Shown here piece by piece: positions 42,109 through 61,965 of a stretch of DNA of 64,000 nt (the first letter of the stretch is position 1; the number at the start of each line of letters is the position of its first letter). Under the pieces are notes generated by a model that saw nothing but the letters and a program-made list of their open reading frames with translations, was not told the DNA's origin and searched no databases. The DNA comes from Rhodopila globiformis. Lineage in GTDB: Bacteria; Pseudomonadota; Alphaproteobacteria; Acetobacterales; Acetobacteraceae. Where the stretch lies: the NCBI RefSeq assembly GCF_002937115.1, contig NZ_NHRY01000128.1:1-64000 (forward strand). Reading direction: 5' to 3'. Made by a program: the position numbers and the translations under genes.

Positions 42109-45100
42109 AGATCGATCAGGTACCCTATGGCCAGCTCGAGAGCCTTCGCCTTCGTTGGACGTCGGCGAGCGGCGCGCTGCCCAACGCGGCGGTGCCCGGC
42201 GCCGAGGCGCTGCTTCAGTTCTCTGAGCGAGAGGCGCAGGCGACGCTTCGGGTCGGAGGAGAGGTGTTGGGCGTCCAGGGCGATGGTCGAAAGCACGAGG
42301 TGCTGCTCGACGACCTCTGCACGCGCCACTTTCCCCACATCGCGTGGGTCGTCGATGCAGGAGCCCAGGTGCTCACGCTGCAGGTCCGCACGTTCCTGCA
42401 CGCCCTGACGCTCCCGCCCATCGAACTCGGCATCGACGAGAAGGCGCTCGAGGCACTGGAGCGGATCGACCGCAAGCTCGCCTCTCCCGAGCGTGCGTTG
42501 GATTGGCTGGACGAGCAGTTCTTCCTCGACGGAGAGGCCGGCAGGCGAGGGTTCGCGACGGCCGAGTCCACGACAGGAGCCTTCGCGCTCTTTGGCCGGA
42601 CGGCGCGCGCGTTCATTCGTCGGGTGAAGCGCCCGGACTCCACCGAGGGGCTGCTCGTCGATCGCGTCGCTCGCGGGCGCGGTCAGGGCGGAGAGCAACT
42701 CGCGCTGGTGTCGGGGGACGTCCGGTTTGTCGATGCAACCGTAGCGGGGAAGCTCCGCGCCGATGCGGCAGCTCAGCTTTCGTCGCTGATCACCGCTGGC
42801 TCGAGCTTCCTGGACCTGTGGAGCCGCTACGGCTCGATGGAGAACGAAGCAGCGCTGCGCAGGGCGAGGAGGGCTGGCTGGCTCAAGTACGACCACGTCG
42901 AGTCGCTACCGGACGGACGGTATCGCTTCTCACTGGCGAACGACTGCACACTCGAGGACGCAGACCAGTTCAAGCGCACGCTCACCGAGGAGCAAGGGCT
43001 CGGCGTCGAAGCCGTCAGCGAGGTCCCGGAGGTGCTCACACGCGAGATGTCATGGGCCGAGTACGAGGCCCAGCCTCGCCCGAAGGATGCCCCGTCGCCG
43101 GCGACCTTCGACGGACGCGTGGAACTCCACCGGCGAGATCGCACCATCACGTTGCTTCAGCGGCGGAGCGACGACGGCACCCCGCCGGGCACGGGCGCAC
43201 TGGTGGTCTCGCTTCATGGAGACAAGACAAGGCTAAAGCGTCGAGCCGAGGCAGAAGGCGCCATCCGAGAAGCACGCTGTCCGATGCCACAGCTTGGTCT
43301 GCTGCTCGAGGGGCGTCCCGTGGCAACGCCCCGTCGAGGCGCGATCGCCCCCGTGACGCCCAACGTAAGGCGAAAGGTGTTCGGGGCGCGTAGCCCGACG
43401 CCGGCGCAGGAGAAGGCACTTCAGGTTGCGCTGAACACTCCGGACATCGCACTCATCCAAGGCCCACCAGGCACCGGGAAGACAACAGTTATCGTCGCAC
43501 TTGTAGAGCGGCTCCAGGAGGTCTGGGACACGCAGGACGGTGTCCAGGGCCGTCTACTGCTTAGCGGCTTCCAGCACGACGCGGTAGAGAACGCGATCCA
43601 GCGGATGAACATCAATGGTCTCCCTCCCATCAAGTTCGGCGGGAGATCGAACAGCACCGAGGACGCCGACCGTGTCGACGTTACGATCGACAGGTGGTGC
43701 AACGAACGAAGCGCGGAGATTCGCAAGAACCTGCCGTCACGGCCGGCTTCGGCGCTGCAGAAAGAGCTCTCCGAGTTGGTGCAGGGCTATCTTTTGGCGC
43801 CAGGCACGCGCGCGCACACAGCTTCCTTGCTTCGCAGCTTCACGCCCCACCTCCTAGGAGCGGTGCCCGCCGCGCTTGTCGATCGCCTCGTCACGCTTGC
43901 GCGCGACCTGTCCGAGCATGCACGAGCGGCACGACGTGGAGACCCTGACCACGAGCGGCTCGTTCGCTGCGTGCGCGCGCTGCGCTGCGACGGGCGGTCC
44001 TTCGCCGATGATGGGCCGCGAAACGCCGATCGGCTCGCGCGCGCGCTTGCCCGCGCAGAACGTCGAGACGAGCAGGCGAAGAAGCTGCTCGAAACCGCTA
44101 CCTTATGGACTGGAGCTGGAGACCCGCCGTTCCTCGACGACCTTCGAGCGCTTCGCCGACGGCTGTTGCTCGACATGCTACCTCCCGATCGCACCGAGGA
44201 CACCATTCCGCGTGTTCGGACCGATATTCTCGAGCTGCTGGGCGAGGTGCGTGACCACCTCGAGCAGCACCAGAACACGTCGCGAGACGGGGCCGACGAG
44301 GCGACTTGGAGGTTTCTCGCCGCGCTCGAAGGGGAGCCCGAAGCCGTCAAGCGCGCCATATTGTCGTACACGTCCGTGTTCGCTGCGACCTGCCAGCAGT
44401 CGGCAAGGCAGGAACTCGCAGCGCTCAAAGGCTCTGAGGGCTACGATACCGTCGTGGTGGATGAGGCCGCGCGCGCGATGCCACTCGACCTGTTCGTCCC
44501 TATGGCCCGCGCAAAGCGACGGATCGTGCTCGTGGGCGACCACCGCCAGCTCCCTCACATCCTCGACCAGGAGCTTGAGCGCGAGCTCGAGGAGGCGTTG
44601 TCGGGCGGCAAGAGTGCGGGAGAGCGCACGAGCGAGATGCTGAAAGAGAGCCTCTTCGAACGGCTGTTCAAGGATCTTGGGGACCGAGAGAAGCGCGACG
44701 GAATCCCTCGCGTCGTCACCCTTGACGAGCAGTACCGCATGCACCCGGTGCTGGGGCAGTTCGTCAGCGATCAGTTCTACAAGCCGCACGGGGAGGCCTT
44801 CAGGTCGCCCCGCCCTGCCTCGGAGTTCGTTCACTCGCTGCCCGGGTATAGCGGGTCGGCGTCGTGGCTGAGCGTCCCGCGCAAACTCGGCCTGGAGCGT
44901 GATGGCCAGAGCAAGTCACGTCCCGTCGAGGCAGAGGCGATCGTCGCGGAGCTGAAGCGGCTCATGGACTCGAAGGAGGGTCGCGAGCTCACCTTCGGCG
45001 TGATCTCCTTCTACAAGCAGCAGGTCAAGGTGATCGAGGATGCGCTCGTGGACGCTGGCATCGTCGCTCGCACCGACGACGCCACGGAGATCGTTGAGCC

Positions 45101-45404
45101 CTACCGCGAGTTGGTGCTTCCCAACGGTCGCGTCGCGGAGCGCCTCCGGTTCGGCACCGTCGACGCTTTCCAGGGCATGGAGTTCGACGTCGTGTTCCTC
45201 TCGATGGTCCGCAGCAATCCGCGCGGGATCTTCGGGCACGTCACCTCACCGAACCGGCTCTGCGTGGCGATGAGCCGTCAAAAGCGGCTCCTGATCGTTG
45301 CGGGCGACGACGGAATGCTCCACGCGGCCAACGCGCCGAAGGCGATCAGCCCGCTGGTCGAGTTCCACAAGCTGAGCGAGGTGCGAGATGCCGCCCGTGT
45401 TTGA
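42105..45404 (+). CDS. SF1 helicase of the UPF1/DNA2 (COG1112) type
   Basis: A 1099-residue helicase. An N-terminal region of about 430 residues is unrecognised. Walker A QGPPGTGKTT (about 450-460), DExx box VVVDEAARAMPLDLF (about 781-795), motif III LVGDHRQLPHIL, EQYRMHP, motif V TVDAFQGMEFDVVFLS and motif VI NRLCVAMSRQKR. About 300 residues are inserted between Walker A and the DExx box. GTG at 42105 overlaps the kinase stop; a longer open frame upstream overlaps the kinase gene and is rejected. It should unwind or remodel RNA or DNA. Confidence 0.88.
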   Translation: MKIDQVPYGQLESLRLRWTSASGALPNAAVPGAEALLQFSEREAQATLRVGGEVLGVQGDGRKHEVLLDDLCTRHFPHIAWVVDAGAQVLTLQVRTFLHALTLPPIELGIDEKALEALERIDRKLASPERALDWLDEQFFLDGEAGRRGFATAESTTGAFALFGRTARAFIRRVKRPDSTEGLLVDRVARGRGQGGEQLALVSGDVRFVDATVAGKLRADAAAQLSSLITAGSSFLDLWSRYGSMENEAALRRARRAGWLKYDHVESLPDGRYRFSLANDCTLEDADQFKRTLTEEQGLGVEAVSEVPEVLTREMSWAEYEAQPRPKDAPSPATFDGRVELHRRDRTITLLQRRSDDGTPPGTGALVVSLHGDKTRLKRRAEAEGAIREARCPMPQLGLLLEGRPVATPRRGAIAPVTPNVRRKVFGARSPTPAQEKALQVALNTPDIALIQGPPGTGKTTVIVALVERLQEVWDTQDGVQGRLLLSGFQHDAVENAIQRMNINGLPPIKFGGRSNSTEDADRVDVTIDRWCNERSAEIRKNLPSRPASALQKELSELVQGYLLAPGTRAHTASLLRSFTPHLLGAVPAALVDRLVTLARDLSEHARAARRGDPDHERLVRCVRALRCDGRSFADDGPRNADRLARALARAERRDEQAKKLLETATLWTGAGDPPFLDDLRALRRRLLLDMLPPDRTEDTIPRVRTDILELLGEVRDHLEQHQNTSRDGADEATWRFLAALEGEPEAVKRAILSYTSVFAATCQQSARQELAALKGSEGYDTVVVDEAARAMPLDLFVPMARAKRRIVLVGDHRQLPHILDQELERELEEALSGGKSAGERTSEMLKESLFERLFKDLGDREKRDGIPRVVTLDEQYRMHPVLGQFVSDQFYKPHGEAFRSPRPASEFVHSLPGYSGSASWLSVPRKLGLERDGQSKSRPVEAEAIVAELKRLMDSKEGRELTFGVISFYKQQVKVIEDALVDAGIVARTDDATEIVEPYRELVLPNGRVAERLRFGTVDAFQGMEFDVVFLSMVRSNPRGIFGHVTSPNRLCVAMSRQKRLLIVAGDDGMLHAANAPKAISPLVEFHKLSEVRDAARV

Positions 45405-47574
45405 TCGCACCACGCCGATCGTAGACTTCGGCGCCACGTCGTCGCCGCTCAGGCGCGAGGCCCATCGATGGCTGGTGTGGCCCGCGCTCGCGTACAAGGT
45501 CCTCCTGCCGTCTCGGGGCAACCCGCCTTTCAACGTCTTTCAGCGCGCCGCGCTCGACATGTGCCGCGCCGGCGTCAGCAACGCCGAGGCGATCTCGCGC
45601 CGCCTCGCGCTCCCTTTGGACCTGATTGGTTTCGTGATCGAGCAACTCCTCAGCATCGGGATGCTCGATGAGGCGCGCGCACCGACGCACCGAGCGCTGC
45701 GCCTGATGAACCACGACGACGAGCCCAGCGAGGTGCAGGACGCTGGCTACGTCTTCGTCGATGGAGTCGATGGAAGGCGTGTCTGGCCGCGCGTCCATCG
45801 CGGCAGTCTGCCGATTGTCGATGCCGAGTTCGAGCACTCTAAGGCCAAGTTCCAGCGGGGCACCCCCGGAAGGCCGGAGCAAGTCCTCGCCAACGTGGTT
45901 TGGCCGGGATCCGGAGCACAACCCTCCGCACCTAGCGCGTACGAAGCGCAGAGGGCCGCTCGACACCACGCCCGCCGCGTGCGCGCATTCAGACGAGAGG
46001 TCTCTCGCGGAGACGCGGACGACGTTCTCGATGGCCTCAAGTCTGCCGGTCTGCGCGTCATCGACGTAGAGCCGGAGCCCATCTTCGTAGCGTCGTACGT
46101 CTTTCTCCCGAAGGACGCGCGGCAGCGTTCTTGGCTTGTTGCCGATCCCCTTGGACTGGGCATCAGCGACGTGCTTCGCCCGGGTTTGACGAAGCTTGCC
46201 AAGCAGGGGAAGCACGGCCTCCCGGAGCTGCTAGAAAAGGTCGCCGGTCAGGCGTGGCACGTCGATGAAGGAGACCTCGCCCTGTATCTGGCAGAGGCAA
46301 CGAAGGCCGCCACGGGGCGCGTTGAGCGTCGTCTCGGTGACGCCGCGACGCTGCTGCCCGCAGACGTACTCGCTCGGCTTGCCGATGCCGACGTCCGCCT
46401 CGAAGGCGCGCAGACAGCCAAGCCGATCGAGGACTTCCTCGGGAACGCCTATGCGGCCCTCGAGTGCGTGTTCGGCTGGATGGTGTCCCTTTACCCTGAC
46501 CCGAGCCTGTTCTCGGCGCTGGGAGACAACGCGCCCGAGAACGCGCCGTTGCTTCGGCGAGTCGCCGAGCAAGTTGGCTTCACCGTCTCGTCGCGCACGC
46601 TGCCGCTCCTGAGCGTCACCCGTGGCATCGTGAAGGGGGCCATCTGCTTCGGCAACAAGACGCTTCCTGGCCGACTGGCGGCGGCCCTTCTAGCAGCGCA
46701 ACGCAACAGCGATCACCCGCTCGTCACCCTGGCCGCTCGAGAGCCTGACGCGCTCGAGTGCTTCGCGGAGATCGGAAGACTCAGGATCAACGCCTCGCAC
46801 GATACCTCCACTATCCCGAGCGCCGGGGTCACGGTCGAGATGCGCGACCGCTTGTTCGCGGTCCTCCGGGCGCTTGTCGGTGCTGGTGCAGTGGACGTGG
46901 AAACCGACACGTTCGAGCCGTCCTGGGGTGCCGACCTGCTGCTTCGCGTGCGCGCTCGAGCCGAGCGGGCATCCGAGAGCTATCCAGGACTCGCCGAGCG
47001 CCCCAACGTTCGCTCGCGCGTGATCGAGATGCACCACGCGGCGCTGCTCGTGAAGCTGCTTGCTGCTTCCGCAGCTACCGCATCGGGGACCTTGAGCACA
47101 CGTGCTCGCGATGCCCTCGTGGCATTCACTATCGTGATGGAGGCGGCGTTCGCCGAGCTCGAAGCAGAGGCATCGACGCCAGCCTCCATCGTGCAGACGA
47201 TCTCGAACGACCGCGAACAGAACGCGGTTCAACTCGCGTCCGCTGCCGTTGCGGTCGGCTTCGAGGTAGAACCGTCGGGCCAGCTCCCCAAGGCTCTCAC
47301 GCATGCGAAGGCGAACCGCATCCGGCGAGCCGCGCTGGGCCAGGGGGAGACGTTGTCGGCGCGCGTCGCGGCGCAGTTGCTCGCAGCGCAGCAGCAGTCG
47401 GACCATCCGCTTCGCGAGGTCGCGAAGCGGCTTCCCACTTTGCTCCTGGACGTGGGCCGCCTCGTTGATGCTCGCGGGCACGGAGATGATGTCGTCGTCA
47501 CGGCAGCCGAAGTCGCCGAGATCGAGACGATGGTTGCCAACGACATTCGGGCGATGCTCGAAGCGATTGATTGA
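45388..47574 (+). CDS. 728-residue protein with an internal duplication, unknown family
   Basis: The N-terminus (about 45-105) looks like a winged helix (RGNPPFNVFQRAALDMCRAG, then SNAEAISRRLALPLDLIGFV). The C-terminal half holds two copies of an unrecognised unit: about 396-475 (LPGRLAAALLAAQRNSDHPL) and about 625-700 (LSARVAAQLLAAQQQSDHPL), which match at 14 of 20 positions in that segment. There is no signal peptide or membrane segment. It starts 17 bases inside the helicase gene. I cannot assign a function; a DNA- or nucleoprotein-binding partner of the helicase is plausible. Confidence 0.7.
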   Translation: MPPVFDRTTPIVDFGATSSPLRREAHRWLVWPALAYKVLLPSRGNPPFNVFQRAALDMCRAGVSNAEAISRRLALPLDLIGFVIEQLLSIGMLDEARAPTHRALRLMNHDDEPSEVQDAGYVFVDGVDGRRVWPRVHRGSLPIVDAEFEHSKAKFQRGTPGRPEQVLANVVWPGSGAQPSAPSAYEAQRAARHHARRVRAFRREVSRGDADDVLDGLKSAGLRVIDVEPEPIFVASYVFLPKDARQRSWLVADPLGLGISDVLRPGLTKLAKQGKHGLPELLEKVAGQAWHVDEGDLALYLAEATKAATGRVERRLGDAATLLPADVLARLADADVRLEGAQTAKPIEDFLGNAYAALECVFGWMVSLYPDPSLFSALGDNAPENAPLLRRVAEQVGFTVSSRTLPLLSVTRGIVKGAICFGNKTLPGRLAAALLAAQRNSDHPLVTLAAREPDALECFAEIGRLRINASHDTSTIPSAGVTVEMRDRLFAVLRALVGAGAVDVETDTFEPSWGADLLLRVRARAERASESYPGLAERPNVRSRVIEMHHAALLVKLLAASAATASGTLSTRARDALVAFTIVMEAAFAELEAEASTPASIVQTISNDREQNAVQLASAAVAVGFEVEPSGQLPKALTHAKANRIRRAALGQGETLSARVAAQLLAAQQQSDHPLREVAKRLPTLLLDVGRLVDARGHGDDVVVTAAEVAEIETMVANDIRAMLEAID

Positions 47575-47590: not shown

Positions 47591-50023
47591 ATGAGCGGCG
47601 CAAACGAAGAAGCCACCACCGTCGACGCTGGCCAGACGAGCGCTGCCAATGCGCTCGACGTGAACGCTGCGGCTCGCCTCAAGCAACTCGACGCGCGCGA
47701 GCAGTCCCTGGCTGCACGTGAGCAGGCACTCAAGGACTGCGAGCAGCAGGTCAACGACCAAGCCGGGGCGCTCAAGGAGCGTGAAGAGGAGGTTGAGGCT
47801 GCGAAGACAAAGGTCCAGCGTGACCTCGCCGATCTCGCGAGGCGCCAGAAGCAGGCGGCAGAGACGGAGAGTTCGCTCGAAGTGCGCTCTCGTGACGTGG
47901 CTCACCGTGAGATCGAGGCGAGCGAAGGGTTCGCCTCGAAGAACCGTGAAGCGCTCGGCGCCCTCACCAAGGCGCACGCGTCGCTGCGCGCTGAGGTAGA
48001 GCGCCTCCAGGCCGAGCTGGACGCGGGTCGATTGAAAGGAGTCGAAGATCTTGAGAAGCGGCTCGCCGATGAGCGGCGAACCCGCACCGAGGCTCTCGAC
48101 GCAGAGCTCGAGGCGGAGCGGAAGCGGCACCTCGCGAAGCTCGCTGCCGAGGGCGCCGCACAGGATGCTGCGCTTGGTGAGCAGAGAGCGCGCTTCGCCA
48201 AGGAGCAGCAATCCGCCCTTGAGGAGATCGAGCGAGAGCGCGTTCGCCTCGCTGACCTGGAGGCTGAGCTTCGCCGCGGGCTTGGCGACCTGCGTGGGAA
48301 GGAGGAGGATCTCGCCGGGTACCGCGCGGGTATCGAGCGGTCCATCGAGGAGAGAGCGCGTGACCAGGTGACGTCGCTGGAGCGCCAGTTGGACGCTCTG
48401 CGTGAGGACCACCGACGGGACCGCGACTTGGTCATCTCGCTCGAGTCACAATTGGCCGCGTCGCGCGACCTCTTGGCGAGGTTCGGGGACGACCCCGCCG
48501 AGATCGAGAAGCGCATCGCACAGCAGTCGAAGAAGATCAGCGACCTCGAGAAGGAGCTTCTCCGCCGCCCGAGTGCAAGCGACAAGGAACTCTTGGTGAC
48601 CCTGCAGGAGCAGGAGCGTGCCTGGGCGGCTGAACGAGACCGGTTGGTTCGTGAGCTCACGCAGTTCAAGGCTGAGCAGAGCCGCTGGCTTACCGGCGTT
48701 GCTGATCTCGAGCAGCAACGAGAACGTCGCGAGGTCGCGGAACGCCGACTCGAGGTGCTCGCCGGAGAGATGGAGAAGTACAAGGCCGACGTCGACCGGA
48801 TGCGTGCCCTGTACGAGCGCCCCGAGGAGCGGGCCGCGCGTGTTGGCGCCATCGAGGAGCCCTGGCGTACGGACTTCAAGCGCGCCGAGGGCAGCACGCC
48901 GAAGGAGCTCGACTGGCTCAACTCGATCACGGCCGCGTGCGAAAGCAGCGGCATGCGCTTCCCGAAGCGCCTGATCCAGGCCTTTCACACGTCGCTCAAG
49001 GCCGCAGAGCTGTCACCGTTGACGGTGCTCGCTGGAGTGAGCGGCACCGGCAAGTCGGAGCTTCCTCGGCTCTATTCGCGCTTCGGCGGGCTCGCGTTCC
49101 TCTCGCTCGCGGTCCAGCCGAACTGGGACAGCCCGCAGTCGTTGTTCGGCTTCTTCAACTCGGTCGACAACCGATTCAACGCGACAACGGTCTTGCGTGC
49201 GATGGTGCAGGCTCAGCATGACCGTCACCACGAGACCTACAAGAATGGGCTCTCGGACCGGCTCTTATTGGTCTTGCTCGACGAGATGAACCTTGCCCAC
49301 GTGGAGCAGTACTTCAGCGATCTCCTCAGCCGACTCGAGCAGCGTCGTGGCGAGAGTCGAGACGTCACGCTCGACATCGACCTCGGTGCCGGCACGCCGC
49401 CGTACCCGCTGCGCCTGGGACGGAACGTGCTTTGGGTAGGCACGATGAACGAGGACGAGACGACCAAGGCTCTGTCCGACAAGGTCGTCGACCGTTCCAA
49501 CCTGCTGTACTTCCCGCGTCCGCGTGAGCTTCACAGCCGTAAGGAGGTCATCCTCGGACCGGAGTCGCCGTTGCTCGCGGAGAGCGCGTGGCGCGAGTGG
49601 GTGCAGTTTCGTTCGCCGTTCACGTCGGACGAGCTCAAGCCGTTCAAGGAGGGGCTCCAGGAGATCAACTCGCGGCTCGAATACGTGGGCCGAGCTCTAG
49701 GTCACCGCGTCTGGCAGTCGGTCGAGTACTACATGGCGAACCACCCCGAGGTGATCGACGCTCGCGCGCGCCAGGATGCGGACGCGCTCCAGCGCACGTT
49801 GCGGCGTGCCTACGAGGACCAACTCGTCCTCAAGGTTATGCCGAAGCTCCGGGGTATCGAGACTACCGGCGACTCGAAGCGCAACTGCCTCGACCCCATC
49901 CGCAAGCAACTCGACAGCGCCGACATGGGTCTTGGGCTATCGGACGACTTCGACATCGCATGCCGTGTGGGACACGGCGCGTTCGTCTGGAACAGCGCGA
50001 GGTACCTGGAGAACGCTGAATGA
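47591..50023 (+). CDS. McrB-like AAA+ ATPase with long N-terminal coiled coil
   Basis: An 810-residue protein. Residues about 25-430 form a continuous coiled coil rich in E, R, A and L. The AAA+ domain has Walker A GVSGTGKSE (481-490), Walker B with the McrB signature LLDEMNLAHVEQYFSDLLS (about 560-578) and sensor WVGTMNEDETT. McrB is the motor of modification-dependent restriction, partnered by McrC. The DUF2357 protein encoded next would be the McrC-like partner. The start at 47591 was chosen because the longer frame overlaps the preceding gene. Its stop overlaps the next ATG. Confidence 0.85.
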   Translation: MSGANEEATTVDAGQTSAANALDVNAAARLKQLDAREQSLAAREQALKDCEQQVNDQAGALKEREEEVEAAKTKVQRDLADLARRQKQAAETESSLEVRSRDVAHREIEASEGFASKNREALGALTKAHASLRAEVERLQAELDAGRLKGVEDLEKRLADERRTRTEALDAELEAERKRHLAKLAAEGAAQDAALGEQRARFAKEQQSALEEIERERVRLADLEAELRRGLGDLRGKEEDLAGYRAGIERSIEERARDQVTSLERQLDALREDHRRDRDLVISLESQLAASRDLLARFGDDPAEIEKRIAQQSKKISDLEKELLRRPSASDKELLVTLQEQERAWAAERDRLVRELTQFKAEQSRWLTGVADLEQQRERREVAERRLEVLAGEMEKYKADVDRMRALYERPEERAARVGAIEEPWRTDFKRAEGSTPKELDWLNSITAACESSGMRFPKRLIQAFHTSLKAAELSPLTVLAGVSGTGKSELPRLYSRFGGLAFLSLAVQPNWDSPQSLFGFFNSVDNRFNATTVLRAMVQAQHDRHHETYKNGLSDRLLLVLLDEMNLAHVEQYFSDLLSRLEQRRGESRDVTLDIDLGAGTPPYPLRLGRNVLWVGTMNEDETTKALSDKVVDRSNLLYFPRPRELHSRKEVILGPESPLLAESAWREWVQFRSPFTSDELKPFKEGLQEINSRLEYVGRALGHRVWQSVEYYMANHPEVIDARARQDADALQRTLRRAYEDQLVLKVMPKLRGIETTGDSKRNCLDPIRKQLDSADMGLGLSDDFDIACRVGHGAFVWNSARYLENAE

Positions 50024-53000
50024 AGAAGGCGCGCGCGGCGCGCGACCGCGCCGCTCCCAAGACAGCGGCGCTACCGCCGCCGATCCCGCAGTTCGACGAG
50101 TTGGACGCTTTGGCGGCATCCAGCGCGCCGACCGTGGAAGCGGCTTGGTGGATTTCCCACCAGGTCGCGGAGCACGTGTTCGCCACGATCGCCCACCGCG
50201 ATCCGCGCACAGGCGCCCCTCTCCCGAGACCTCTCACGGAGATCCTGCGCGACGTTCGAATCGCCACCTCGAAGGGGAGTCGGCCGTTTCCGCGCGATCG
50301 CCTCCTCGTCGCCGCCGAGTTCACCGCGGACTCCCTCGAGCACTTGCTCGACCGGCATCGCCATCGAACTGTCAGGACCCACGAGCAGCTCCCGTTCCAT
50401 CAGCTTCGCGAGGTCGACACCCGATCGATGGCGTGGCTTGCCCGACAGCCCGGAAGGAACATCCGCGAGAAGCTCTCGGGCCGCACCCATGCGCTGGGCG
50501 TGAAGCGCGACGTGTCCGTCGACACGACCGAGAACCGGCTCCTTCGGTCGTTCGCCAAGCTCCTTGTTCGGCGCGCCGGCAGCCGGCTGGACCACAGAGA
50601 CGCCTACGACGGAACAACCGAGGACGTAGAGCGTGTGCGTCGGCTGGAGGAGTGCATTCGCCTTTGCGATGAGCGGATGAGACGCTCCGAACTCGCCGAG
50701 ATCCCCACCCTGACCCGCTTGCAGCCCAACAACGTCCTGCTGAGCGACCCGCACTACTCGCGGGTGTTTCGCGCATGGAAGTGGCTGCGCGACGATGAGG
50801 AGGCACTGCGCGAGTCTTGGAACGACGCCCTCCAGCGTACGCGCGTCCTTCTGTGCTGGATGGTCGCAGCGCAGCTCGTGACCGGTGAGCGGGTGGTGGT
50901 CGTGGAGACGCTGGGACGCGTCCTCACGGAACGCGGCGACGAGCACCACCTCGGAGTCGAGGTGCTGGGCGCCGAGGCGGTCGGGGCCGACTGGTTTCTG
51001 AATCCGCCGCTGCACTTCTTGGTGTTGCCGAGCGGGCACAACGACGCGGCGTTCCGCATCCGCCTCTCGCTGGAGGGTGAGTTCATCCTCGCCCACGTCG
51101 CCAGCTCGGGCGGGCGAGGGCTCCTCGTGGAGGAGTCGGTCTCTGCGCTCGCCTTCGAGATGCGTCCCACCTCGGAGCGACTCCAGCCTCAGCGCGGAAT
51201 CGGTATCGCGATCGACGGCTTGGAGACCTCGCTTCTTGGGGCAGACCGCGCGTTCGCCGACCTCGCCGGGCTGACGCCCCTTGCCACGCAGATGGCTCGG
51301 CAAATCCTCCAGCGCTGCAATGTGAACCCGAACCTCGAGCGCCGAGAACACACCGCCGTTGTGCTGACGGACGGTGCAAGGCTCGGCATCGAGCTCGGCA
51401 CCGCCTCGCTGCACGTCGGCGCGGAGAAGGGTCTGCCGCTGCTCTCGGCACCGTGGGCCTTGGCGCTCGATGTGCCGGGCGAAGAGGGTGGCATCGACTG
51501 GGTTGAAGGGCGCACGGACCGGGAGTTGGTCCTCGGCGCTGCCGGTCGTTCGCTGCGAGCCACCGGCGACGTCCTGGACGCGAGCGAGCAGGCCGACGCA
51601 GGGATGCTCGCCTTGGCGGCGGACCGCTTGCTGGGGAATCTCGCGTCAGAACTTCAGGTGCCGACCGATGCACGGGTCGCGTACGCCGTCCCCGATGCCG
51701 TCGATGAGTTCTCGCAGCGCAGCCTGCGAAGCGCGTTCGGAGGCTCGTTCCATCGTCCGGTTCCCGTGTGGAGGAGCGTCGCGGCCGCGATGTCCTGGGC
51801 TTCGGCGGCAGGTGAGCGCGGGCCCCGCCCGGGAGAGACGGTGGTGGTCGTCGACATGGAGTTCGGCGGCATCTCATTGACCGTGCTGACCGCCCGGCAT
51901 GACAAGAAGCTCGAGCAGGCACATCCGTCGTCGCGCGGGATCTACTGGGAGCGCAAACCGCTGCTCCCTCCCGACGAGCAGTTGGAGATGCTCGGTTGGC
52001 CACATGTCCTCCGCGCCTACGCGCGGATGCTGGTCGAACGAGACGTGAGCACGCTGGCGCCTGAGTTCCAGGAGCGCGTTGTCGAGGACCTCCTCCGCAG
52101 CGGCAAGATCGGTGCGCTTGTCGCGCGTGGCGGTTCGATCTTTGTACAAATCGCTTCAAGACAGCGAGCGACGCCCGACGTCGTGAAGTTCTTCGAGGAC
52201 CCTGCATGGTTCGACGACGAGGTGGCGCGATGGATCGATCGCCTCGATCAGAGCGTGAGGGATGCGCTCTCGGAGATCGGCAAGGCCCGTGCGGTGCTGA
52301 TCGGCGGCCCGTGCGACTACCAACGGTTTTATGGGGCTGGGCGACAGACGGGTCGGATCAAGATCTTCAACGAGGAGAAGGGCTTCGGTTTCATCCATCC
52401 CGACGACGGTAGCGCTGATGTGTTCTTCCATATTAACTCCGTGCAGGTAGCCGACGAAGTGGCGCTTCGGCGGGACCTTGCCGTTGAGTTCGACGTCGGC
52501 AAGGGTAGGAAGGGGCCCGAAGCCCATCGCGTCACCACGGTGTCTTCGCTCGCATCGTGGTTGCGGCGACGAACGGTGGTCACGTCGGGGACACTCGCGG
52601 CCGGCGCGCGTGAGTGCCTGCTCCGACTGGACACGGGCTCTCCCACCTGGCGTGAGTGGCTGCCCGAGCTGTCGCTCGAGGTCGTGCGCGACGGCCACTT
52701 CGGTGAACTCCCGCTGCTCGAGCGAGGGACGTTTACCGACCCGTTCCTCGGTGCGGCCAAGGAGTTCACGGTCCCGGAGACCCTCACGCTGGCGCGCGGG
52801 CACCGGTGGTTCTCCTTCCCGCTGCTCGTCGGTCGCCAGGGACGCCTGCCAGTCGCGTGGGAGGCGCGGCTCGATTCGCCCGCGTTCCCTCTTGACCACG
52901 AAGTGCGCGCGCGGCTGCGACTTTCCTACCGGTACGGCCTCGAAAATAGCTACATTCTTTCGGTGGAGCCTGCCTCCCCGGACGATGCTCCGTTCGTTGG

Positions 53001-54027
53001 GCTGCAGGCCAAGTGGATCAAGGGAGGCGAGGGCACCACGTCGGTGCTTAGCCGGGAGCCCCTACTTATTCCGCAGGTGCCGTGGGACAAGGATCGTGCG
53101 GACACCTTCGTCAAGGCGACGCAGTCACTTCGTCTCAGTGACGAGAAATTTGCGAGGTTTCTGTTCGCCGTGACGCGCGAGTGCTGGTCGGAGGGACGAA
53201 GCCTCGCGACCGCTCCGGACAACGTTCAGCGTGTTTTCCCTGGATTCCGCGAACAGTTGTGGACCGCCCTTCCACCCGAGTTGCACTGCCGCGAGATACC
53301 GCGCACTCTCGAGATCCTGTCGCTGCTCCACGAAGACGCACCGCCGGAACTCACAGGTTTGCTTTTTGATCTGGATCGCCAGGCTGGCGACGACGTGGAC
53401 ACGTACCGGAAGACGTCGAGCATGCTGGCTATGCTCGTCGGCGATGGGGCGGGCGAACGGAACGCGATCCTGCACCATCTAGTCGATCGGCTCCGACATT
53501 ACACCGATGGAGAGGTTTTCAGTCCTGCACTGATGGGCCACACGATGCGAGCGTTGGGCAACGCCGCCTGGAGGCATCCAAACTTCGTGGGAGCGCTGTC
53601 CTCAGTGTCCGGCGGTGCAGCTCTCATCCTCAGGCAGTGCCGACGTTCGTTGCAGGGACTGCTCCTGCGCATCCCGGTCAACGTTTCCTCTGACGAGGAG
53701 GGCCAGAAGGTTGCGCGGCTCTACGGCACTCCGTTCAGGGACGCCTGCGAGTTGCTGCTCGCGCTGATGGCCGTCGATCCTTTGGATCCAGTTGTCGCTC
53801 CGCTGCGCACCGGCTCCCCATCCGCCCACGCCTTCGCCAAGCTCGTTCGCCAGCTCGATGCCAGGCTCGCGTCTTTCGGTGCGACTCCGCACTGGCGAGT
53901 GCGCCTCGACGTCGAGGTGCCGCCCGCCCTCCACCGAATGTCACCCGTTGCCTTCGCATTGAACACATACTTGGCAGGTGGCGCGGGCGCGAACTTGGTC
54001 CAGGTCACGGGCGCCGATCTTGACTGA
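50020..54027 (+). CDS. DUF2357-like / Hsp70-like / cold-shock domain fusion protein
   Basis: A 1335-residue protein. Residues about 40-350 resemble DUF2357, the McrC-type partner of McrB, including DTTENRLLRSFAKLLV (about 168-183); no PD-(D/E)XK nuclease motif is obvious. About 445-770 look like an actin/Hsp70-type ATPase: GIELGTASLHVG (about 455), VAYAVPDAVDEFSQRSLRSA, phosphate loop VVVVDMEFGGISL (about 607) and VLIGGPCDY (about 760). Residues 776-842 are a clear cold-shock domain with RNP1 KGFGFI and RNP2 DVFFHI. The last 490 residues are unassigned. It ends the operon and is ATGA-coupled to the McrB-like gene. Confidence 0.72.
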   Translation: MKKARAARDRAAPKTAALPPPIPQFDELDALAASSAPTVEAAWWISHQVAEHVFATIAHRDPRTGAPLPRPLTEILRDVRIATSKGSRPFPRDRLLVAAEFTADSLEHLLDRHRHRTVRTHEQLPFHQLREVDTRSMAWLARQPGRNIREKLSGRTHALGVKRDVSVDTTENRLLRSFAKLLVRRAGSRLDHRDAYDGTTEDVERVRRLEECIRLCDERMRRSELAEIPTLTRLQPNNVLLSDPHYSRVFRAWKWLRDDEEALRESWNDALQRTRVLLCWMVAAQLVTGERVVVVETLGRVLTERGDEHHLGVEVLGAEAVGADWFLNPPLHFLVLPSGHNDAAFRIRLSLEGEFILAHVASSGGRGLLVEESVSALAFEMRPTSERLQPQRGIGIAIDGLETSLLGADRAFADLAGLTPLATQMARQILQRCNVNPNLERREHTAVVLTDGARLGIELGTASLHVGAEKGLPLLSAPWALALDVPGEEGGIDWVEGRTDRELVLGAAGRSLRATGDVLDASEQADAGMLALAADRLLGNLASELQVPTDARVAYAVPDAVDEFSQRSLRSAFGGSFHRPVPVWRSVAAAMSWASAAGERGPRPGETVVVVDMEFGGISLTVLTARHDKKLEQAHPSSRGIYWERKPLLPPDEQLEMLGWPHVLRAYARMLVERDVSTLAPEFQERVVEDLLRSGKIGALVARGGSIFVQIASRQRATPDVVKFFEDPAWFDDEVARWIDRLDQSVRDALSEIGKARAVLIGGPCDYQRFYGAGRQTGRIKIFNEEKGFGFIHPDDGSADVFFHINSVQVADEVALRRDLAVEFDVGKGRKGPEAHRVTTVSSLASWLRRRTVVTSGTLAAGARECLLRLDTGSPTWREWLPELSLEVVRDGHFGELPLLERGTFTDPFLGAAKEFTVPETLTLARGHRWFSFPLLVGRQGRLPVAWEARLDSPAFPLDHEVRARLRLSYRYGLENSYILSVEPASPDDAPFVGLQAKWIKGGEGTTSVLSREPLLIPQVPWDKDRADTFVKATQSLRLSDEKFARFLFAVTRECWSEGRSLATAPDNVQRVFPGFREQLWTALPPELHCREIPRTLEILSLLHEDAPPELTGLLFDLDRQAGDDVDTYRKTSSMLAMLVGDGAGERNAILHHLVDRLRHYTDGEVFSPALMGHTMRALGNAAWRHPNFVGALSSVSGGAALILRQCRRSLQGLLLRIPVNVSSDEEGQKVARLYGTPFRDACELLLALMAVDPLDPVVAPLRTGSPSAHAFAKLVRQLDARLASFGATPHWRVRLDVEVPPALHRMSPVAFALNTYLAGGAGANLVQVTGADLD

Positions 54028-54511: not shown

Positions 54512-55009
54512 ATGAGCGAACCAAAACGAAAACGGCTGGTACGGAAGCGCAAGCTGGACAAGTGGAGCGGGCGTGGCGAGATCTACGCTTGGCTCAGGGC
54601 ACACCATAAGAAGATCAAAAGCCTCAAGGTTGGGGACGATCGACCTTGGTCGGAGCTGCTTCTGGACCTTCGGGCGGACCTTGCTGGCAGCATCCCAGCG
54701 GACCGCATCGCCTTGAACAACGTGCTCAACACATGGAAGCGGGTCTGTCGGGATCTTGACGACTCACCACCCGTGTACCGGTTCAAGAACTATCCCTCGC
54801 GGATTTCAAAGGACTGGAGGCCAGAGGTCGTCTCTTCGCCGACGGTGGAGCCGGCGCCGCGTGGCCAGTTGACGCCAGGTATTCACCCGCCGGGGACCAG
54901 CCTCATTCGCAAGCCTGGGCAGGAGAATGCGGTCACCGGCAGGAAGCTGACCGGGGAGGAGAAGCTTGCTCGGCTTGAGGCAGAATTGGCCAGCCGGCGG
55001 GGCGGTTAG
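54512..55009 (+). CDS. StbA/TraK-like DNA-binding protein
   Basis: A 165-residue basic protein. The N-terminal half (RGEIYAWLRAHHKKI ... RPWSELLLDLRADLA ... NVLNTWKRVCRDL) is a compact helical domain of the kind seen in plasmid oriT-binding or stability proteins. The C-terminal half is low-complexity with a final helix. It heads a three-gene unit whose order (small DNA-binding protein, P-loop-like protein, membrane helical protein) matches traKLM or stbABC. Probably autoregulates through the upstream direct repeats. Confidence 0.55.
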   Translation: MSEPKRKRLVRKRKLDKWSGRGEIYAWLRAHHKKIKSLKVGDDRPWSELLLDLRADLAGSIPADRIALNNVLNTWKRVCRDLDDSPPVYRFKNYPSRISKDWRPEVVSSPTVEPAPRGQLTPGIHPPGTSLIRKPGQENAVTGRKLTGEEKLARLEAELASRRGG

Positions 55010-55028
55010 CACAAAGGAGAATGCATCC

Positions 55029-55853
55029 ATGGACGGTGATGTTGACGTCGGGGCTGGGCCCCTCCCGCGGTCGGTTCCGGACAGTTCGCCGGGCAGGATC
55101 GACCTGATTGTTCGCGAAGGCCGGGGGCGGCTCGGCGGAACCATGTTTCTTGATCTGCTGATACAGCGGGCCCGTGCGAACGGGCGCCGGGTCAAGCCGA
55201 TGGACGGGGACCTGAAGAGCCGAACGCTCAGCACGCTCTACCCTTCGAAGGATCCCAGGGGCCGAGCGATCGAGGATGGGGCGAGTAGCCCTGTAAGCGA
55301 CGACATCGCACACCAGAAGGACTGGATACAGGAGCAACTCAACCAGATGACGGAGGACCGGGTGTCACGGATCCTCGATCTAAGTGGGGGCGATCGGGTC
55401 ATGCAGGAGCTGGTGCTCGACCTGATGCTGAAGGACTTCTGCGGCGATTTCGGGATCGGTTTGACGAACATCGTCATGCTCGGTCCCGACGTCGAAGACT
55501 TCAATCACGCAATGGAGAGGTTCAAGGCCGAGGACTCGCGCGGCGATCGGGTGATCTTCGTCCTGAACGAGGGCGTGATCCGGCAGGGCCAGACGACGGA
55601 GGGTGCGTTCACCACCATCATCAAACACCCCGACTTTGTCGCTGCGCTAAAGGGGGGCGCTCAGTATATCCTGCTTCGCCGATTGAGTTGCATGCATGTC
55701 CTGCGCGAGCGCGGTATCGGCTTTTACGATGCGGCGGCTGGGCGGCCGGATCGGAGTGGGGCGAAGGTCCCGCCGACCGTTCAGCATATGACCAAGGTGT
55801 GGCTGGGGGCGTTCGAGCGGTCCTCGGAGGACATCGCCGAGTGGCTTCCGTGA
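55029..55853 (+). CDS. StbB/TraL-like P-loop-fold protein with degenerate Walker A
   Basis: A 274-residue protein. The N-terminus IDLIVREGRGRLGGTMFLDL followed by GRRVKPMDGDLKSRTLSTLY has the layout of ParA/TraL-type ATPases (Walker A, then the conserved aspartate), but the Walker A lacks the GK[ST] core, so ATP binding is doubtful. The remainder is alpha/beta and family-like in length. AAGGAG precedes the ATG by nine bases. Overlaps the next start (GTGA). Confidence 0.55.
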   Translation: MDGDVDVGAGPLPRSVPDSSPGRIDLIVREGRGRLGGTMFLDLLIQRARANGRRVKPMDGDLKSRTLSTLYPSKDPRGRAIEDGASSPVSDDIAHQKDWIQEQLNQMTEDRVSRILDLSGGDRVMQELVLDLMLKDFCGDFGIGLTNIVMLGPDVEDFNHAMERFKAEDSRGDRVIFVLNEGVIRQGQTTEGAFTTIIKHPDFVAALKGGAQYILLRRLSCMHVLRERGIGFYDAAAGRPDRSGAKVPPTVQHMTKVWLGAFERSSEDIAEWLP

Positions 55854-56443
55854 CTGATGAAGTGGCGGCGCTCCGCGAGAGCGTCGTTCGCCTGATCGAG
55901 GGTGCCCGTCGCGATGGCATCGAGCCAGACGGCCCATTGGGCCGCTGGCTCGCCGCGCAAGCCGGCGCGCTGGAGAGCCTGGCCTTTGTGCTGCAATCGC
56001 AGGCCGACCGTGCGGACGCGCTGTTGAGTGGCATCGACGTGGCCGCGAAGGCCGAGCTTGCGAAGGCCGCTGCAACCCTGGAACAGGGCAAGAAGGCGAT
56101 CGCGCAGGGCGAGGTTGTCCTCGCCCAGGCGCGCGCTGCGCAATATCATCTGCACCTCTCGGAACAGACGTTGGTCAGCCGGCTGGTGAACGACACGTTG
56201 CCACTGTTCGCGCAGCACATGAAGGAAGCGCTGGTCATTCGCGAGCGGCGTTGGAACCAGGACAAGGGCCGTCAGCGCATGGCGCTGGCCGGCGCGATGA
56301 CGCTCGCTGTGTTTCTGTCGGGCTTTGTCATTCGCACGGCGGTCGATTGGGATCGGCTGGGGCTGGCGGAACGCTGTGCTGCTCACCCCATTTCGGAGGG
56401 GACGCGCGTCGTGTGCGAGATCAGCCCGAGCGCCGCGCCGTGA
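55850..56443 (+). CDS. StbC/TraM-like helical membrane protein
   Basis: A 197-residue protein: long amphipathic or coiled-coil helices (about 30-135), then one membrane segment (about 148-168: MALAGAMTLAVFLSGFVIR) and a short tail with cysteines. Position after a TraL-like gene and the coiled-coil-plus-anchor layout fit TraM/StbC. Start GTG overlaps the previous stop. Confidence 0.55.
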   Translation: MTDEVAALRESVVRLIEGARRDGIEPDGPLGRWLAAQAGALESLAFVLQSQADRADALLSGIDVAAKAELAKAAATLEQGKKAIAQGEVVLAQARAAQYHLHLSEQTLVSRLVNDTLPLFAQHMKEALVIRERRWNQDKGRQRMALAGAMTLAVFLSGFVIRTAVDWDRLGLAERCAAHPISEGTRVVCEISPSAAP

Positions 56444-56511
56444 CTGTCAAGCCGGCAATCTCGTTCACAACGTATTGCGCCAATGTGGGCCTCCTAACGA
56501 GAGGAGGTGTC

Positions 56512-57330
56512 ATGTCGAGGAGAGACAAACAGGTCCCTTGGATGGGCCGGAGTGTTCGGCTGGTGGGGACGAGCGTAGCGGGGGTCCTGGGCCTGGCGCT
56601 TGTTGATGCGGCGGTTGCGCAGCAGGCGCAGAGCCTGAACGGTCCGCCGGTGCAGGTGATCCCGTATGCGTCCGAGCCGGGCGTTCCGACGATCACGATC
56701 AATCCCGGGACGCCGAACCCTTTCCCAACTGGCGGTGGTTCGGGGACTGGTGGCAGTGGCAGCGGCAACACGGGCGATAGTGACGCCCTGACCACTTTAC
56801 TTGGAACATCGTGGGGATCGCAGGCGGTCCAGAACGCCGAAGCTCTCGGCGTCAACCCATCCGCTTTGGCGGCGACGTGTGTGCTGGAGAGCGGGTGCAG
56901 CCAGCCTTCGGGCGGCGGCGGCGCACAGGGTGTTTTCCAGATGTTCCCCGCAGCCTATCAGGAGGGGTTGGCGACCGCGCTGGCGGCAAATCCGGGCCTA
57001 GCATCTCAAATAGTGCAAGGCTCTGCTGGAATGAACGATCTGACAACAGAGGCGATTGCCGCAGCTGGTTACCTGATGCAGGCGAACCAGACACTCCAGT
57101 CCGCCGGTATTTCCAACCCAACAGTGTTGGACGCGCGGAGTTACTACGAGTTCGGCCCGACATATGGTGTAGCGGTGGCGCAAGCGCCGCCCGGCGCGAC
57201 AATGGCATCACTGCTGCCTGCGAGTTTCCTTTCGAATAATGGGATCTCATCCACGGAGACGGTGGCGCAATGGCAGGCGTCAGTTTCAGCGAAAGTCGGC
57301 AATGCCTCCGGTCAATCCGTTCTTGGTTAG
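56512..57330 (+). CDS. lytic transglycosylase-like protein
   Basis: A 272-residue exported protein. Signal peptide residues about 1-37 (ending AVAQQ), a glycine/serine linker (about 70-90) and an SLT-like domain (about 95-235): AATCVLESGCSQP with the likely catalytic glutamate, GGAQGVFQMFPAAYQEG, DARSYYEFGPTYG. GAGGAGG precedes the ATG at 56512. It may open the wall for the transfer apparatus, duplicating the 25711 gene product. Confidence 0.75.
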   Translation: MSRRDKQVPWMGRSVRLVGTSVAGVLGLALVDAAVAQQAQSLNGPPVQVIPYASEPGVPTITINPGTPNPFPTGGGSGTGGSGSGNTGDSDALTTLLGTSWGSQAVQNAEALGVNPSALAATCVLESGCSQPSGGGGAQGVFQMFPAAYQEGLATALAANPGLASQIVQGSAGMNDLTTEAIAAAGYLMQANQTLQSAGISNPTVLDARSYYEFGPTYGVAVAQAPPGATMASLLPASFLSNNGISSTETVAQWQASVSAKVGNASGQSVLG

Positions 57331-57340
57331 GAGACGAAGA

Positions 57341-57733
57341 ATGCGTTCGAAGTTCTTTACACTTACTGTCTGCGGGCTTGCGTGGACCACTGCTTCCTGG
57401 GCTTCACCGCGCTATCCGGTGTCAGCCGTCCCTACTCTGAGCTGCATGTCGCTTAAGGTTACTGATCAACAGGCTATGGATCCAAGTTTTGTTGTGCCGT
57501 TCTACAAAGGTCCATCCGAGCGTACGCCAGTGGTCGGCCGTGCTTCGTCTGTCGTTCTCGTAAAAAAGCCAGTCGTTGAAAAAGATGGCTTCATCGCCGC
57601 CGTCCTATTCAATGGCGTTCCAGGATGGGTCTCAGCAAGGACTCTGGGACCCTGGCACACTATGGACGGATCATCAGGGAAGTGCATTCCGTCTCGGATG
57701 TCAGACGGCAGTATCGGTTTCGACATAAAGTAG
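57341..57733 (+). CDS. exported SH3-like hypothetical protein
   Basis: A 130-residue protein with a signal peptide (ending SWASP, residue 22). The mature part is beta-rich (VVPFYKGPSERTPVVGRASS ... GFIAAVLFNGVPGWVSART) in the style of bacterial SH3 or envelope domains that sense or bind peptidoglycan. It begins 10 bases after the transglycosylase gene, so they are probably co-transcribed. Confidence 0.6.
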   Translation: MRSKFFTLTVCGLAWTTASWASPRYPVSAVPTLSCMSLKVTDQQAMDPSFVVPFYKGPSERTPVVGRASSVVLVKKPVVEKDGFIAAVLFNGVPGWVSARTLGPWHTMDGSSGKCIPSRMSDGSIGFDIK

Positions 57734-57768
57734 GCGTGGCGTCAGACCGGTTGCCGAAGAGCACAATT

Positions 57769-57942
57769 ATGTCGCGATCCCCTATACGGCCTTCTTCGGG
57801 CATCATTTGGCTTATCGCAGCCGCCCTGCTTTTCGTGATCGGCGCGGTTGCTAACGGCGCATCCGGCTCCCGTGAACTGGCTGAGCTGGGCGTGATTGGC
57901 TCGGTCGTGGCGATTGCGTTTGTCGCTGCGTTCATGGGCTGA
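57769..57942 (+). CDS. small two-pass membrane protein
   Basis: A 57-residue protein with two hydrophobic segments (about 11-28 and 38-56). GAAGA lies before the ATG. Last gene of this short plus-strand run. No family recognised. Confidence 0.5.
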   Translation: MSRSPIRPSSGIIWLIAAALLFVIGAVANGASGSRELAELGVIGSVVAIAFVAAFMG

Positions 57943-58140
57943 CGGGAAAGCGCGTCAACAGGCATGCATCCGGGCGAGGCCGGGTTGTGGCAGACCTCTT
58001 GGGGTCTGCGGCTGGCGCGTCCTGGCCTTGCAGCCGGGTGCGTGCCCCGGCGGTGGATGGTGCCGACCTGAACTAGCCCGCCTGGTGTGTACACGACGAG
58101 AGGGCCGACCTGTGTGGGCCGGCCCCTGTCGTTGGGCGGA

Positions 58141-58317
58141 TCAGAAGGGTAGGTCTGCTTCGGTGATTGCAGGGGCGTCCCAGACGATGCAGCTCACGTC
58201 GATGTCACGGTGGTAGGTTTCGATGTGGCGGATTGTGTAGCCCTGGGCGGAGAGTGCGGCGTTGTCGTCGTTGGCGTCGATGTCCGTGGCCACGGTGCCG
58301 TTCGAGAGGTGTGTCAT
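58141..58317 (-). CDS. small hypothetical protein
   Basis: A 58-residue acidic soluble protein (MTHLSNGTVATDIDANDDNA). AAAGGGA precedes the ATG by seven bases, favouring it over the much longer frame upstream. No motif recognised. Typical of small plasmid genes of unknown role. Confidence 0.5.
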   Translation of the reverse strand: MTHLSNGTVATDIDANDDNAALSAQGYTIRHIETYHRDIDVSCIVWDAPAITEADLPF

Positions 58318-58712
58318 TGCGATGTTCCCTTTCTGCATCAGCCCGATTGCTGATGAGCAGCGGGAAGGCCGGGCTTCGTGACGGCTCAACCTCCGCGGAG
58401 GGAGGACCGGAGCCACGCGCAGCCATGCTCGGCGCCTCTTCGCGCCGAGCATGGCGAGCATGGCGAGGACCGGACTGGAGCGGCCGCGCAGCGGCGCCGA
58501 AGGCGGGGTTGAATCGGCGCGACCTTGCCCGGCCTTACGCTCGAAGATCAGCAGGTGAGCGCTTTTCCTCCCCGACCGTAACTGGTGTCGCAGGATCGGG
58601 ACCGCCCAAGTTCCGTGCTCCCGTTATTTCCCCCTGGGGAGGGCGTCGGCGGAAAGGAGGGGTGGTGGGACAATGCGGAAGGCAGGGGCCTTGCGACCCC
58701 CGCTCCGGTGCC
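58318..58712. other. 395-base noncoding region with a perfect 14-bp hairpin
   Basis: It contains GCCATGCTCGGCGC and its exact complement around a 6-base loop (58422-58455), immediately followed by a tandem 9-base repeat, GAGCATGGC twice (58447-58464), that shares the hairpin's right arm. Upstream of a minus-strand gene, it could carry its promoter, a terminator for the other minus-strand gene, or a replication/partition site. Confidence 0.45.
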
Positions 58713-60267: not shown

Positions 60268-60549
60268 ATGCCGCGTGCTGAAGTTCCCATGCAAATCCTC
60301 AATGTTCGTCGTCCTGCGCATCATGACCTGTGGGATGTCGTTCGTTTCAAGATCGTCGATGGGCGGCGCATGCTTCGAAAGTGGCTCGCCGATCCGACGG
60401 TGAGCGATGAGCTGCGGATGGGCGATGCCGAACTGCTTGCGCGCTTCGAGGCGCATCTCGCCGAGCGCAAGCCGGCGAGGATCCGCTTCCTGACGAGCGA
60501 AGAGGCTCTGGCAATGCTGATGATGGCGGAGGGCCAGACGCTGCATTGA
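60268..60549 (+). CDS. small hypothetical protein
   Basis: A 93-residue soluble protein with HHDLWDVVRFKIVDGRRMLR and a C-terminal helix EEALAMLMMAEG. The start is uncertain (ATG at 60250, 60268 or 60289); 60268 has GGCGAG upstream. A perfect hairpin follows the stop. No family recognised. Confidence 0.5.
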   Translation: MPRAEVPMQILNVRRPAHHDLWDVVRFKIVDGRRMLRKWLADPTVSDELRMGDAELLARFEAHLAERKPARIRFLTSEEALAMLMMAEGQTLH

Positions 60550-60577
60550 CCCGCCGCCGGCCGGGACCGGCGGCGGG
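60550..60577. terminator. GC hairpin between convergent genes
   Basis: An 11-bp perfect stem (CCCGCCGCCGG / CCGGCGGCGGG) with a 6-base loop between two genes that face each other. No T-tract, so termination would be weak or rho-assisted; it may simply separate the two transcripts. Confidence 0.5.
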
Positions 60578-60586
60578 CCGCACCGT

Positions 60587-61709: not shown

Positions 61710-61723
61710 CGCCCGAGGCGTGC

Positions 61724-61930: not shown

Positions 61931-61965
61931 GGATGCCTCGTGGGAAGGGTTGAGGGGTGCGTGGC

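Follow-up and report, generated by a model that had tools for sequence, protein, structure and literature searches.

Which system employs a protein that joins an McrC-type DUF2357 domain to a cold-shock domain (CSD) and a putative Hsp70-like region, and which nucleic acid that system attacks, are the questions raised by the open reading frame (ORF) at positions 50020–54027 (+) of the Rhodopila globiformis DNA analysed here (64,000 nt of contig NZ_NHRY01000128.1, hereafter the window). The gene is a single intact ORF with an ATG at 50020 and a stop at 54027, encoding 1335 aa, and is the last gene of its operon, its first 4 bases coinciding with the last 4 of cnuB. Its closest relatives share 98% (L001), 77% (L002, Myxococcus qinghaiensis) and 62% (L003) identity, and the ORF is intact in all three, for which reason an explanation by frameshift or artefact was rejected. 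The encoded protein is the CnuCD of a Type III-A CoCoNuT operon, a class of which the domain set, the operon and a predicted RNA target were already described by Bell et al. 2024 (PMC11090510), and the novelty that an earlier reading of this DNA (the original prediction) had seen in the domain combination is therefore lost.

The assignment of the locus to Type III-A, which we hold to be almost certain, rests on the NxD motif of the McrB-like GTPase CnuB, the two HEPN motifs of CnuE (RxxxxH and RxH), the superfamily 1 (SF1) motifs of the UPF1-like helicase CnuH, the zinc ribbon of the kinase and a DUF2357 protein without a nuclease family, and the locus also has a single CSD outside DUF2357 and a TerY-P triad. 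According to PMC11090510, one or two CSDs outside DUF2357 are usual in these systems, if not universal, Type III-A CnuH carries SmpB-like and RelE-like domains, CnuCD contains an Hsp70-like nucleotide-binding domain (NBD) and substrate-binding domain (SBD) followed by HEAT-like C-terminal repeats, and the TerY-P triad with its kinase zinc ribbon is frequent, without being part of the core. It counts against the assignment that a tblastn search with the window CnuE at 1e-5 matched only one plasmid record, a Type II-like locus; the likeness of this CnuE to those of other plasmids is judged from its place in the operon and from motif alignment.

Two domains of CnuCD were recognised directly by Pfam, the DUF2357 or McrC N-terminal domain at residues 105–253 (50332–50778, +; PF09823, E 2.1e-11, 44 bits versus a cut-off of 23.3), confirming the McrC-type N-terminus that had been proposed, and the CSD at residues 777–840 (52348–52539, +; PF00313, E 1.8e-18), for which the original boundaries of 776–842 were good to within two residues. 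The CSD contains the sequences KGFGFI and VFFH, which we take to be its RNP1-like and RNP2-like motifs. At E ≤1 the only further Pfam match in CnuCD was OB_RNB, which lies within the CSD and is below its cut-off, and no nuclease family was matched at this threshold. The remainder was delineated by alignment, with the first part of a putative Hsp70-like NBD at residues ~450–772 (51367–52335, +; hhalign to bacterial Hsp70), its probable end after the CSD at ~846–872 (52555–52635, +; alignment with the myxobacterial homologue L063 and the end of the Hsp70 NBD), an SBD-like beta domain at ~873–1010 (52636–53049, +; hhalign to the Hsp70 SBD, and strands in low-confidence AlphaFold2 models), and a C-terminal region at ~1030–1335 (53107–54024, +) that aligns across relatives and, by homology only, may consist of HEAT-like repeats.

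The Hsp70-like region was investigated in an alignment of residues ~380–1010 of the window protein and ten relatives (A4, 11 members). Two interrupted copies of cnuCD, one of them split by an insertion sequence (IS) in L043 and the other in L053, were excluded from all CnuCD alignments, L046 and L054 contributed no CnuCD row, and L062 was left out of A4 and used in a BLASTP test. With the CSD removed, hhalign of four rows from the clade of the window against four bacterial Hsp70 NBDs gave three ordered local matches (P 0.076, 0.084 and 0.32) on the phosphate-1, phosphate-2 and adenosine positions, the matched CnuCD segments being LGIELGTASL, VVVVDMEFGGISLTV and AVLIGGPCDY; the phosphate-1-like motif starts at residue 453, the phosphate-2-like motif spans ~605–627 and the adenosine-like IGGPCDY starts at 761. 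Leaving the CSD in gave P 0.091 with 11 rows, on phosphate-2, and P 0.12 with four rows, on the adenosine motif. The best match to longer Hsp70 sequences covered 166 columns (P 0.074), starting before the adenosine motif, crossing the last part of the NBD and entering the SBD, with the second match on phosphate-2. In one column-shuffle control, 1/200 shuffles equalled the real top score and 0/200 matched the summed scores of the top three hits, and in a second control the real top score was reached by 0/100 column shuffles and the length of 166 columns by 0/200 shuffles. Decoy proteins of the same operon scored 18.4 (CnuH), 14.6 (CnuE) and 22.8 (CnuB) against 23.9 for CnuCD, and since such scores do not discriminate by themselves, the argument for an Hsp70 fold is built on the register of the matches and on alignment length.

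Several other results lend an Hsp70 fold no support or weigh against it. Pfam found no HSP70 (PF00012) in the 11 A4 members at E ≤10, with HMMER filters dropping most weak matches, and the A4 profile matched no Hsp70 in the PDB, giving one unrelated match at E 1.9; L063 likewise gave one unrelated PDB match (E 2.1) and no Hsp70. AlphaFold2 models of residues 380–1010 and 861–1015, built on an alignment of the window protein and L001–L003 only, had mean pLDDT values of 35.6 and 43.5 and were too poor to use. The hhalign P-values to Hsp70 ranged overall from 0.07 to 0.38, a global profile alignment of CnuCD with Hsp70 found nothing, the third match to the longer Hsp70 sequences was off register, and in the run with 200 column shuffles the best real match was off the expected register and its three matches differed from the collinear trio of motifs described above. 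In the second control, 22/100 block shuffles attained the top score of the real alignment, and the CnuB decoy nearly equalled CnuCD, though it matched away from the three nucleotide motifs. We nevertheless regard an Hsp70-like NBD and SBD in CnuCD as very probable, mostly on the strength of the family models reported in PMC11090510. The actin/Hsp70 fold originally placed at residues 445–770 thus has weak, well-placed profile alignments in its favour and finds no echo in Pfam and PDB sequence searches, and its proposed end before the CSD is to be revised, as the region apparently picks up again behind the CSD and extends through the SBD-like part to ~1010.

The catalytic residues of Hsp70 were taken from DnaK. 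In the clade of the window the phosphate-1 Asp is replaced by E or Q, with the Asp being retained in several relatives, none of the 11 rows has the Glu of EPTAAAL, and phosphate-2 has a degenerate glycine-rich loop whose Asp is retained in 9/11 rows, while the adenosine GG is retained in the clade of the window. With such degenerate residues, CnuCD likely binds nucleotide at most, and the 'chaperone-like ATPase' of the original prediction is not borne out. If the fold is right, this agrees with the view in PMC11090510 that such Hsp70-like domains hydrolyse ATP poorly at best.

The simplest reading of the alignments is that in the clade of the window the CSD appears to be inserted into the Hsp70-like NBD just after the adenosine loop. 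Pfam places the CSD at 777–840 in both the window protein and L002 and at 774–835 in L003, and its position and RNP-like motifs are retained in L001–L003, down to ~62% identity. Alignment with the myxobacterial homologue L063 showed no CSD at this position, and over the region of A4 Pfam matched a CSD in 4/11 members. BLASTP of the window protein against L063 gave two pieces (residues 23–650 and 859–1038, with 133 and 69 bits) when the CSD was present, and removing residues 774–840 joined them into one alignment 1014 columns long (179 bits, E 3.8e-49), the stretch 650–773 being only weakly alike in L063. Behind the CSD, the segment LAAGARECLLR has LARGAQEALLR as its counterpart in L063 and also aligns to the last part of the Hsp70 NBD. 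A point against the insertion is that BLASTP of the window protein without the CSD against L062 recovered the N-terminal piece only, so that the joining was seen in one of the two homologues tried. Such an insertion of a CSD into the NBD is absent from the text of PMC11090510, and we claim no priority for it. A CSD truly lying within an Hsp70-like NBD would be one way to couple an RNA sensor to a nucleotide switch of the ASKHA type.

At the upstream end of the operon lies a gene for an RtcR-type regulator with CARF, sigma-54 AAA+ and helix-turn-helix (HTH) parts (37277–38779, +; PADLOC RtcR_PspF2--CARF_AAA_HTH, E 1.8e-181; Pfam Sigma54_activat, E 1.2e-63), which is predicted to be the activator of the operon. 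A sigma-54 promoter site of the −24/−12 type, TGGCACGCCAGTTGC (38800–38814, +; consensus TGGCACN5TTGC), is located 20 bases after the rtcR stop codon and 59 bases before the start of the following DUF4258-like gene, and is the only perfect match to this consensus in the window on both strands. The rtcR gene is adjacent in four loci of the clade of the window, that is the window itself, L067 (rtcR identity 99.6%), L065 (81%) and L066 (49%), and a sigma-54 site lies behind rtcR in all four; L066 has the perfect site TGGCACGCAGCTTGC directly after the rtcR stop and L065 has TGGCACGACGGCTGC at the same place with 1 mismatch, giving perfect sites in three loci, of which two are near-identical DNA (L067 and the window, hence not independent), and a single mismatch in the fourth. 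Weighing against the site, 0.20 perfect matches are expected per window and at least one was found in 19/100 shuffles, so that it is not rare by chance; further sites with ≤1 mismatch occur in L065 (one) and L066 (two, one of which is perfect); and no shared inverted repeat was seen among the loci compared that could be an activator site. The weight of the site comes from its position and recurrence. The additional perfect consensus match of L066 (4199–4213, −) lies ~100 bases before the rtcR ORF. The sigma-54 site is not named in the main text of PMC11090510. Pfam PF01139 detected no RtcB in the host genome, which is 98.55% complete, making it unlikely that this RtcR serves RtcAB repair, and a coupling to that pathway was therefore rejected; the RtcR-like regulator probably serves this operon.

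These components suggest a mechanism in which RNA ends arising during phage infection would be bound by the RtcR-like regulator through its CARF domain. The regulator would then activate the sigma-54 promoter that closely follows rtcR, and with it the whole operon. CnuCD would dock through DUF2357 on the ring of the McrB-like CnuB, as is known for this domain family, and would act as an RNA-recognising adaptor, with the CSD gripping single-stranded RNA and the degenerate Hsp70-like NBD and SBD serving as a slow or inactive nucleotide-gated clamp; the position of the CSD beside the adenine loop of the NBD could couple RNA binding to the nucleotide state. CnuH would move along the RNA, and the HEPN domains of CnuE, active if their motifs are a guide, would cut it and thereby stop the phage or the cell. 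To be set against this is that no experimental work on any CoCoNuT was found in the literature searched, so that the mechanism is wholly predicted. We give this course of events an even chance, and consider fairly probable the explanation as a whole, in which the ORF is the CnuCD of a defence operon of the Type III-A CoCoNuT kind that is probably cargo of a mobile element. A further proposal, that insertion of the RNA-binding CSD directly behind the adenine-holding loop of the Hsp70-like NBD has made a single RNA-gated (or nucleotide-gated RNA) switch licensing the McrB ring, the RNA helicase and the HEPN RNases, under a dedicated RtcR and sigma-54 promoter that senses broken RNA ends, is tentative and in our estimate rather unlikely.

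The rival to such a switch sees in the CSD a neutral, mobile anchor for RNA, merely tolerating its position in an NBD region that works as a scaffold without nucleotide or RNA switching. The placement of the CSD does vary among relatives: by Pfam it lies behind DUF2357 and ahead of the NBD in L044 (303–364), L051 (302–364) and L052 (333–395), while L042 has a sub-threshold match after the SBD (760–812, 25.3 bits versus a cut-off of 27) and L045 has none. The degenerate nucleotide motifs also fit a scaffold, but the CSD position and RNP-like motifs kept in L001–L003, together with the adenosine GG kept in the clade of the window, speak against mere tolerance, and we judge a neutral anchor somewhat unlikely.

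The target could also be DNA, with CnuCD loading the McrB ring and the helicase on single-stranded or modified DNA and the CSD holding single-stranded DNA (ssDNA), in a restriction complex of the kind that the DUF2357/McrB architecture brings to mind; binding of ssDNA is within the reach of CSDs, and some UPF1-like helicases act on DNA (PMC11090510). This is improbable, as Pfam identified no DNase domain, PD-(D/E)xK or other, among the nine proteins of the operon that were scanned, and the nuclease-type motifs that were seen, both in CnuE, are HEPN-like, which together with the published class prediction favours the originally suggested RNA or ssDNA over modified double-stranded DNA. The adjacent von Willebrand factor A (vWA), PP2C and kinase genes could also suit a response module for chemical stress (tellurite or metal), built on a TerY-P triad, which PMC11090510 links to tellurite resistance, and with CnuCD as a chaperone-like adaptor; with HEPN motifs and a CARF regulator pointing to defence and no other ter family among the nine proteins scanned, a stress module is very improbable. 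The RNA-targeting Type III-A CoCoNuT is our preferred reading.

From the vWA gene onward, the genes of the operon overlap or are separated by ≤16 bases, and the SF1 helicase and CARF regulator noted in the original prediction are confirmed. Between the promoter site and the vWA gene is a gene for a small DUF4258-like protein (38874–39215, +; PF14076, E 2.1e-4, 21.9 bits, below the cut-off of 25), which occupies the place of the BrnT-like toxin gene of RtcR-linked CoCoNuTs and may encode such a toxin; RtcR homologues and BrnT-like genes are reported upstream of these systems in PMC11090510. The TerY-P triad consists of a TerY-like vWA protein (39246–39905, +; PF13519, E 6.1e-12; PADLOC TerY, E 6.4e-7), a PP2C phosphatase (39902–40639, +; PF13672, E 4.2e-30) and a Ser/Thr kinase (40636–42108, +; PF00069, E 2.4e-8), the last with a C-terminal CxxC-x10-CxxC zinc ribbon, CRSCGSSFDVTAGSCQFC, from residue 340. 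CnuH, the UPF1/IGHMBP2-like SF1 helicase (42105–45404, +; PF13087, E 9.1e-36; PF13086, E 2e-32; TIGR00376, E 1.1e-43, below its cut-off), has its SF1 motifs present in 6/6 aligned homologues, with Walker A at residue 453 and a DEAA motif ~330 residues further on, a large insertion after Walker A being judged from this spacing alone. CnuE (45388–47574, +) is predicted to have a winged HTH (Pfam match sub-threshold, E 0.013) and two HEPN RNase domains, of which the RxxxxH (RINASH, 46783–46800) and RxH (RGH, 47473–47481) were each aligned in 8/8 homologues at the level of the motif. CnuB (47591–50023, +; PADLOC PDC-M26A, E 1.5e-29) carries the Walker A sequence GVSGTGKS (49034–49057) and the NxD motif NED (49448–49456) of an McrB-like GTPase, both found in 9/9 homologues, preceded by a putative coiled coil, residues 147–416 matching SMC models at E 2.1e-5 and 3.1e-5, far below the model cut-offs.

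An integrative conjugative element or a plasmid seems to carry the operon as cargo, since it adjoins conjugation genes (26280–36822) encoding a DotM-like protein (26280–27602; PF23127, E 5.9e-50), coupling-protein domains (27970–30315; best E 5e-11) and a TrwC relaxase (33709–36822, −; E 1.7e-42). In the region behind the operon (54512–63862), 15 selected ORFs had no Pfam match at E ≤0.01, and a gene for a single-stranded DNA-binding protein is located at 63239–63685 (−; E 1.3e-36).

Plasmids of Caballeronia, Enterobacter, Klebsiella and Photobacterium have the same gene order of PP2C, kinase, helicase, CnuE, CnuB and DUF2357 protein, and the CnuCD of L051 matched 16 plasmid records at E ≤1e-20. 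A point against the preferred reading is that in the stretches seen of the Caballeronia, Enterobacter and Klebsiella operons the CARF gene is of the DUF1887 kind, not rtcR. The Klebsiella plasmid operon (L080, 1000–7159) has upstream VWA, AAA ATPase and DUF1887 CARF genes, resembling in this the extended Type III-A operons in PMC11090510. The system is sparse across the genomes searched. A profile of the C-terminal region of CnuCD (A2) matched 1/398 genomes drawn from the phylum, being the window's own, 2/369 genomes from the class of G453, 4/195 from the phylum of L002 (its own and three partial matches), and 1/59 relatives (again the window's own, with 0/32 for the other genomes of its genus). 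Two order-level searches covered only 2 and 3 genomes. A search with residues 1–760 gave 3/398 genomes, comprising the window's own and two DUF2357-region matches (G453 and G635); a search with the whole of CnuCD, matching 58/385 genomes, was discarded, as the matches listed, other than the one in the window, were confined to the CSD region. Scans of viral contigs yielded 0 relatives, and phage records searched with CnuB gave no match. On the Enterobacter cloacae plasmid pPOL9A (L043, 11773–14013), an element annotated as IS21-like ISSen3 separates a short ORF from the rest of cnuCD, which looks interrupted, with intact copies on other plasmids. In G453 (L053, 8815–11725), apparent cnuB and cnuCD genes are truncated close to a 313-aa ORF that occurs there twice, in opposite orientations, and is probably an insertion sequence.

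With the rest of the interpretation mostly published, the remaining interest of this locus lies in the position of the CSD and in the sigma-54 promoter. With its one canonical CSD, its sigma-54 site and a host lacking RtcB, this RtcR-linked locus of Type III-A makes the ideas of RNA targeting and of a broken-RNA sensor directly testable.

Among known systems, the locus shares an AAA+ GTPase partner and DUF2357 with McrBC Type IV restriction (McrB and McrC of E. coli), but has NxD in place of NxxD, helicase and HEPN-type partners, and no PD-(D/E)xK nuclease that Pfam could find at the sequence level. CnuCD resembles Hsp70 (DnaK) in the order of phosphate-1, phosphate-2 and adenosine-like motifs followed by an SBD-like beta region, and departs from it in its lack of a Pfam HSP70 match, its degenerate catalytic residues and its apparently inserted CSD. 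A Type II CoCoNuT, to which the Pseudanabaena plasmid locus L054 probably belongs (typed from the lengths of its coding sequences), has TerY-P, CnuH, CnuE, CnuB and CnuC in the same order, whereas its CnuE, at 510 aa, and its CnuC, at 746 aa, are shorter and leave less room for a second HEPN domain and for the Hsp70 and HEAT parts. The closest likeness is to the CnuCD of Type III-A CoCoNuTs (PMC11090510), with which the window shares operon content, NxD McrB, RxxxxH/RxH CnuE, a zinc-ribbon kinase, DUF2357 with a CSD and no nuclease found, and an RtcR-type CARF regulator upstream; it differs from the text of that study, which says only that CSDs lie outside DUF2357, in a CSD that apparently sits inside the NBD after the adenosine loop, and in a sigma-54 promoter site identified at this locus.

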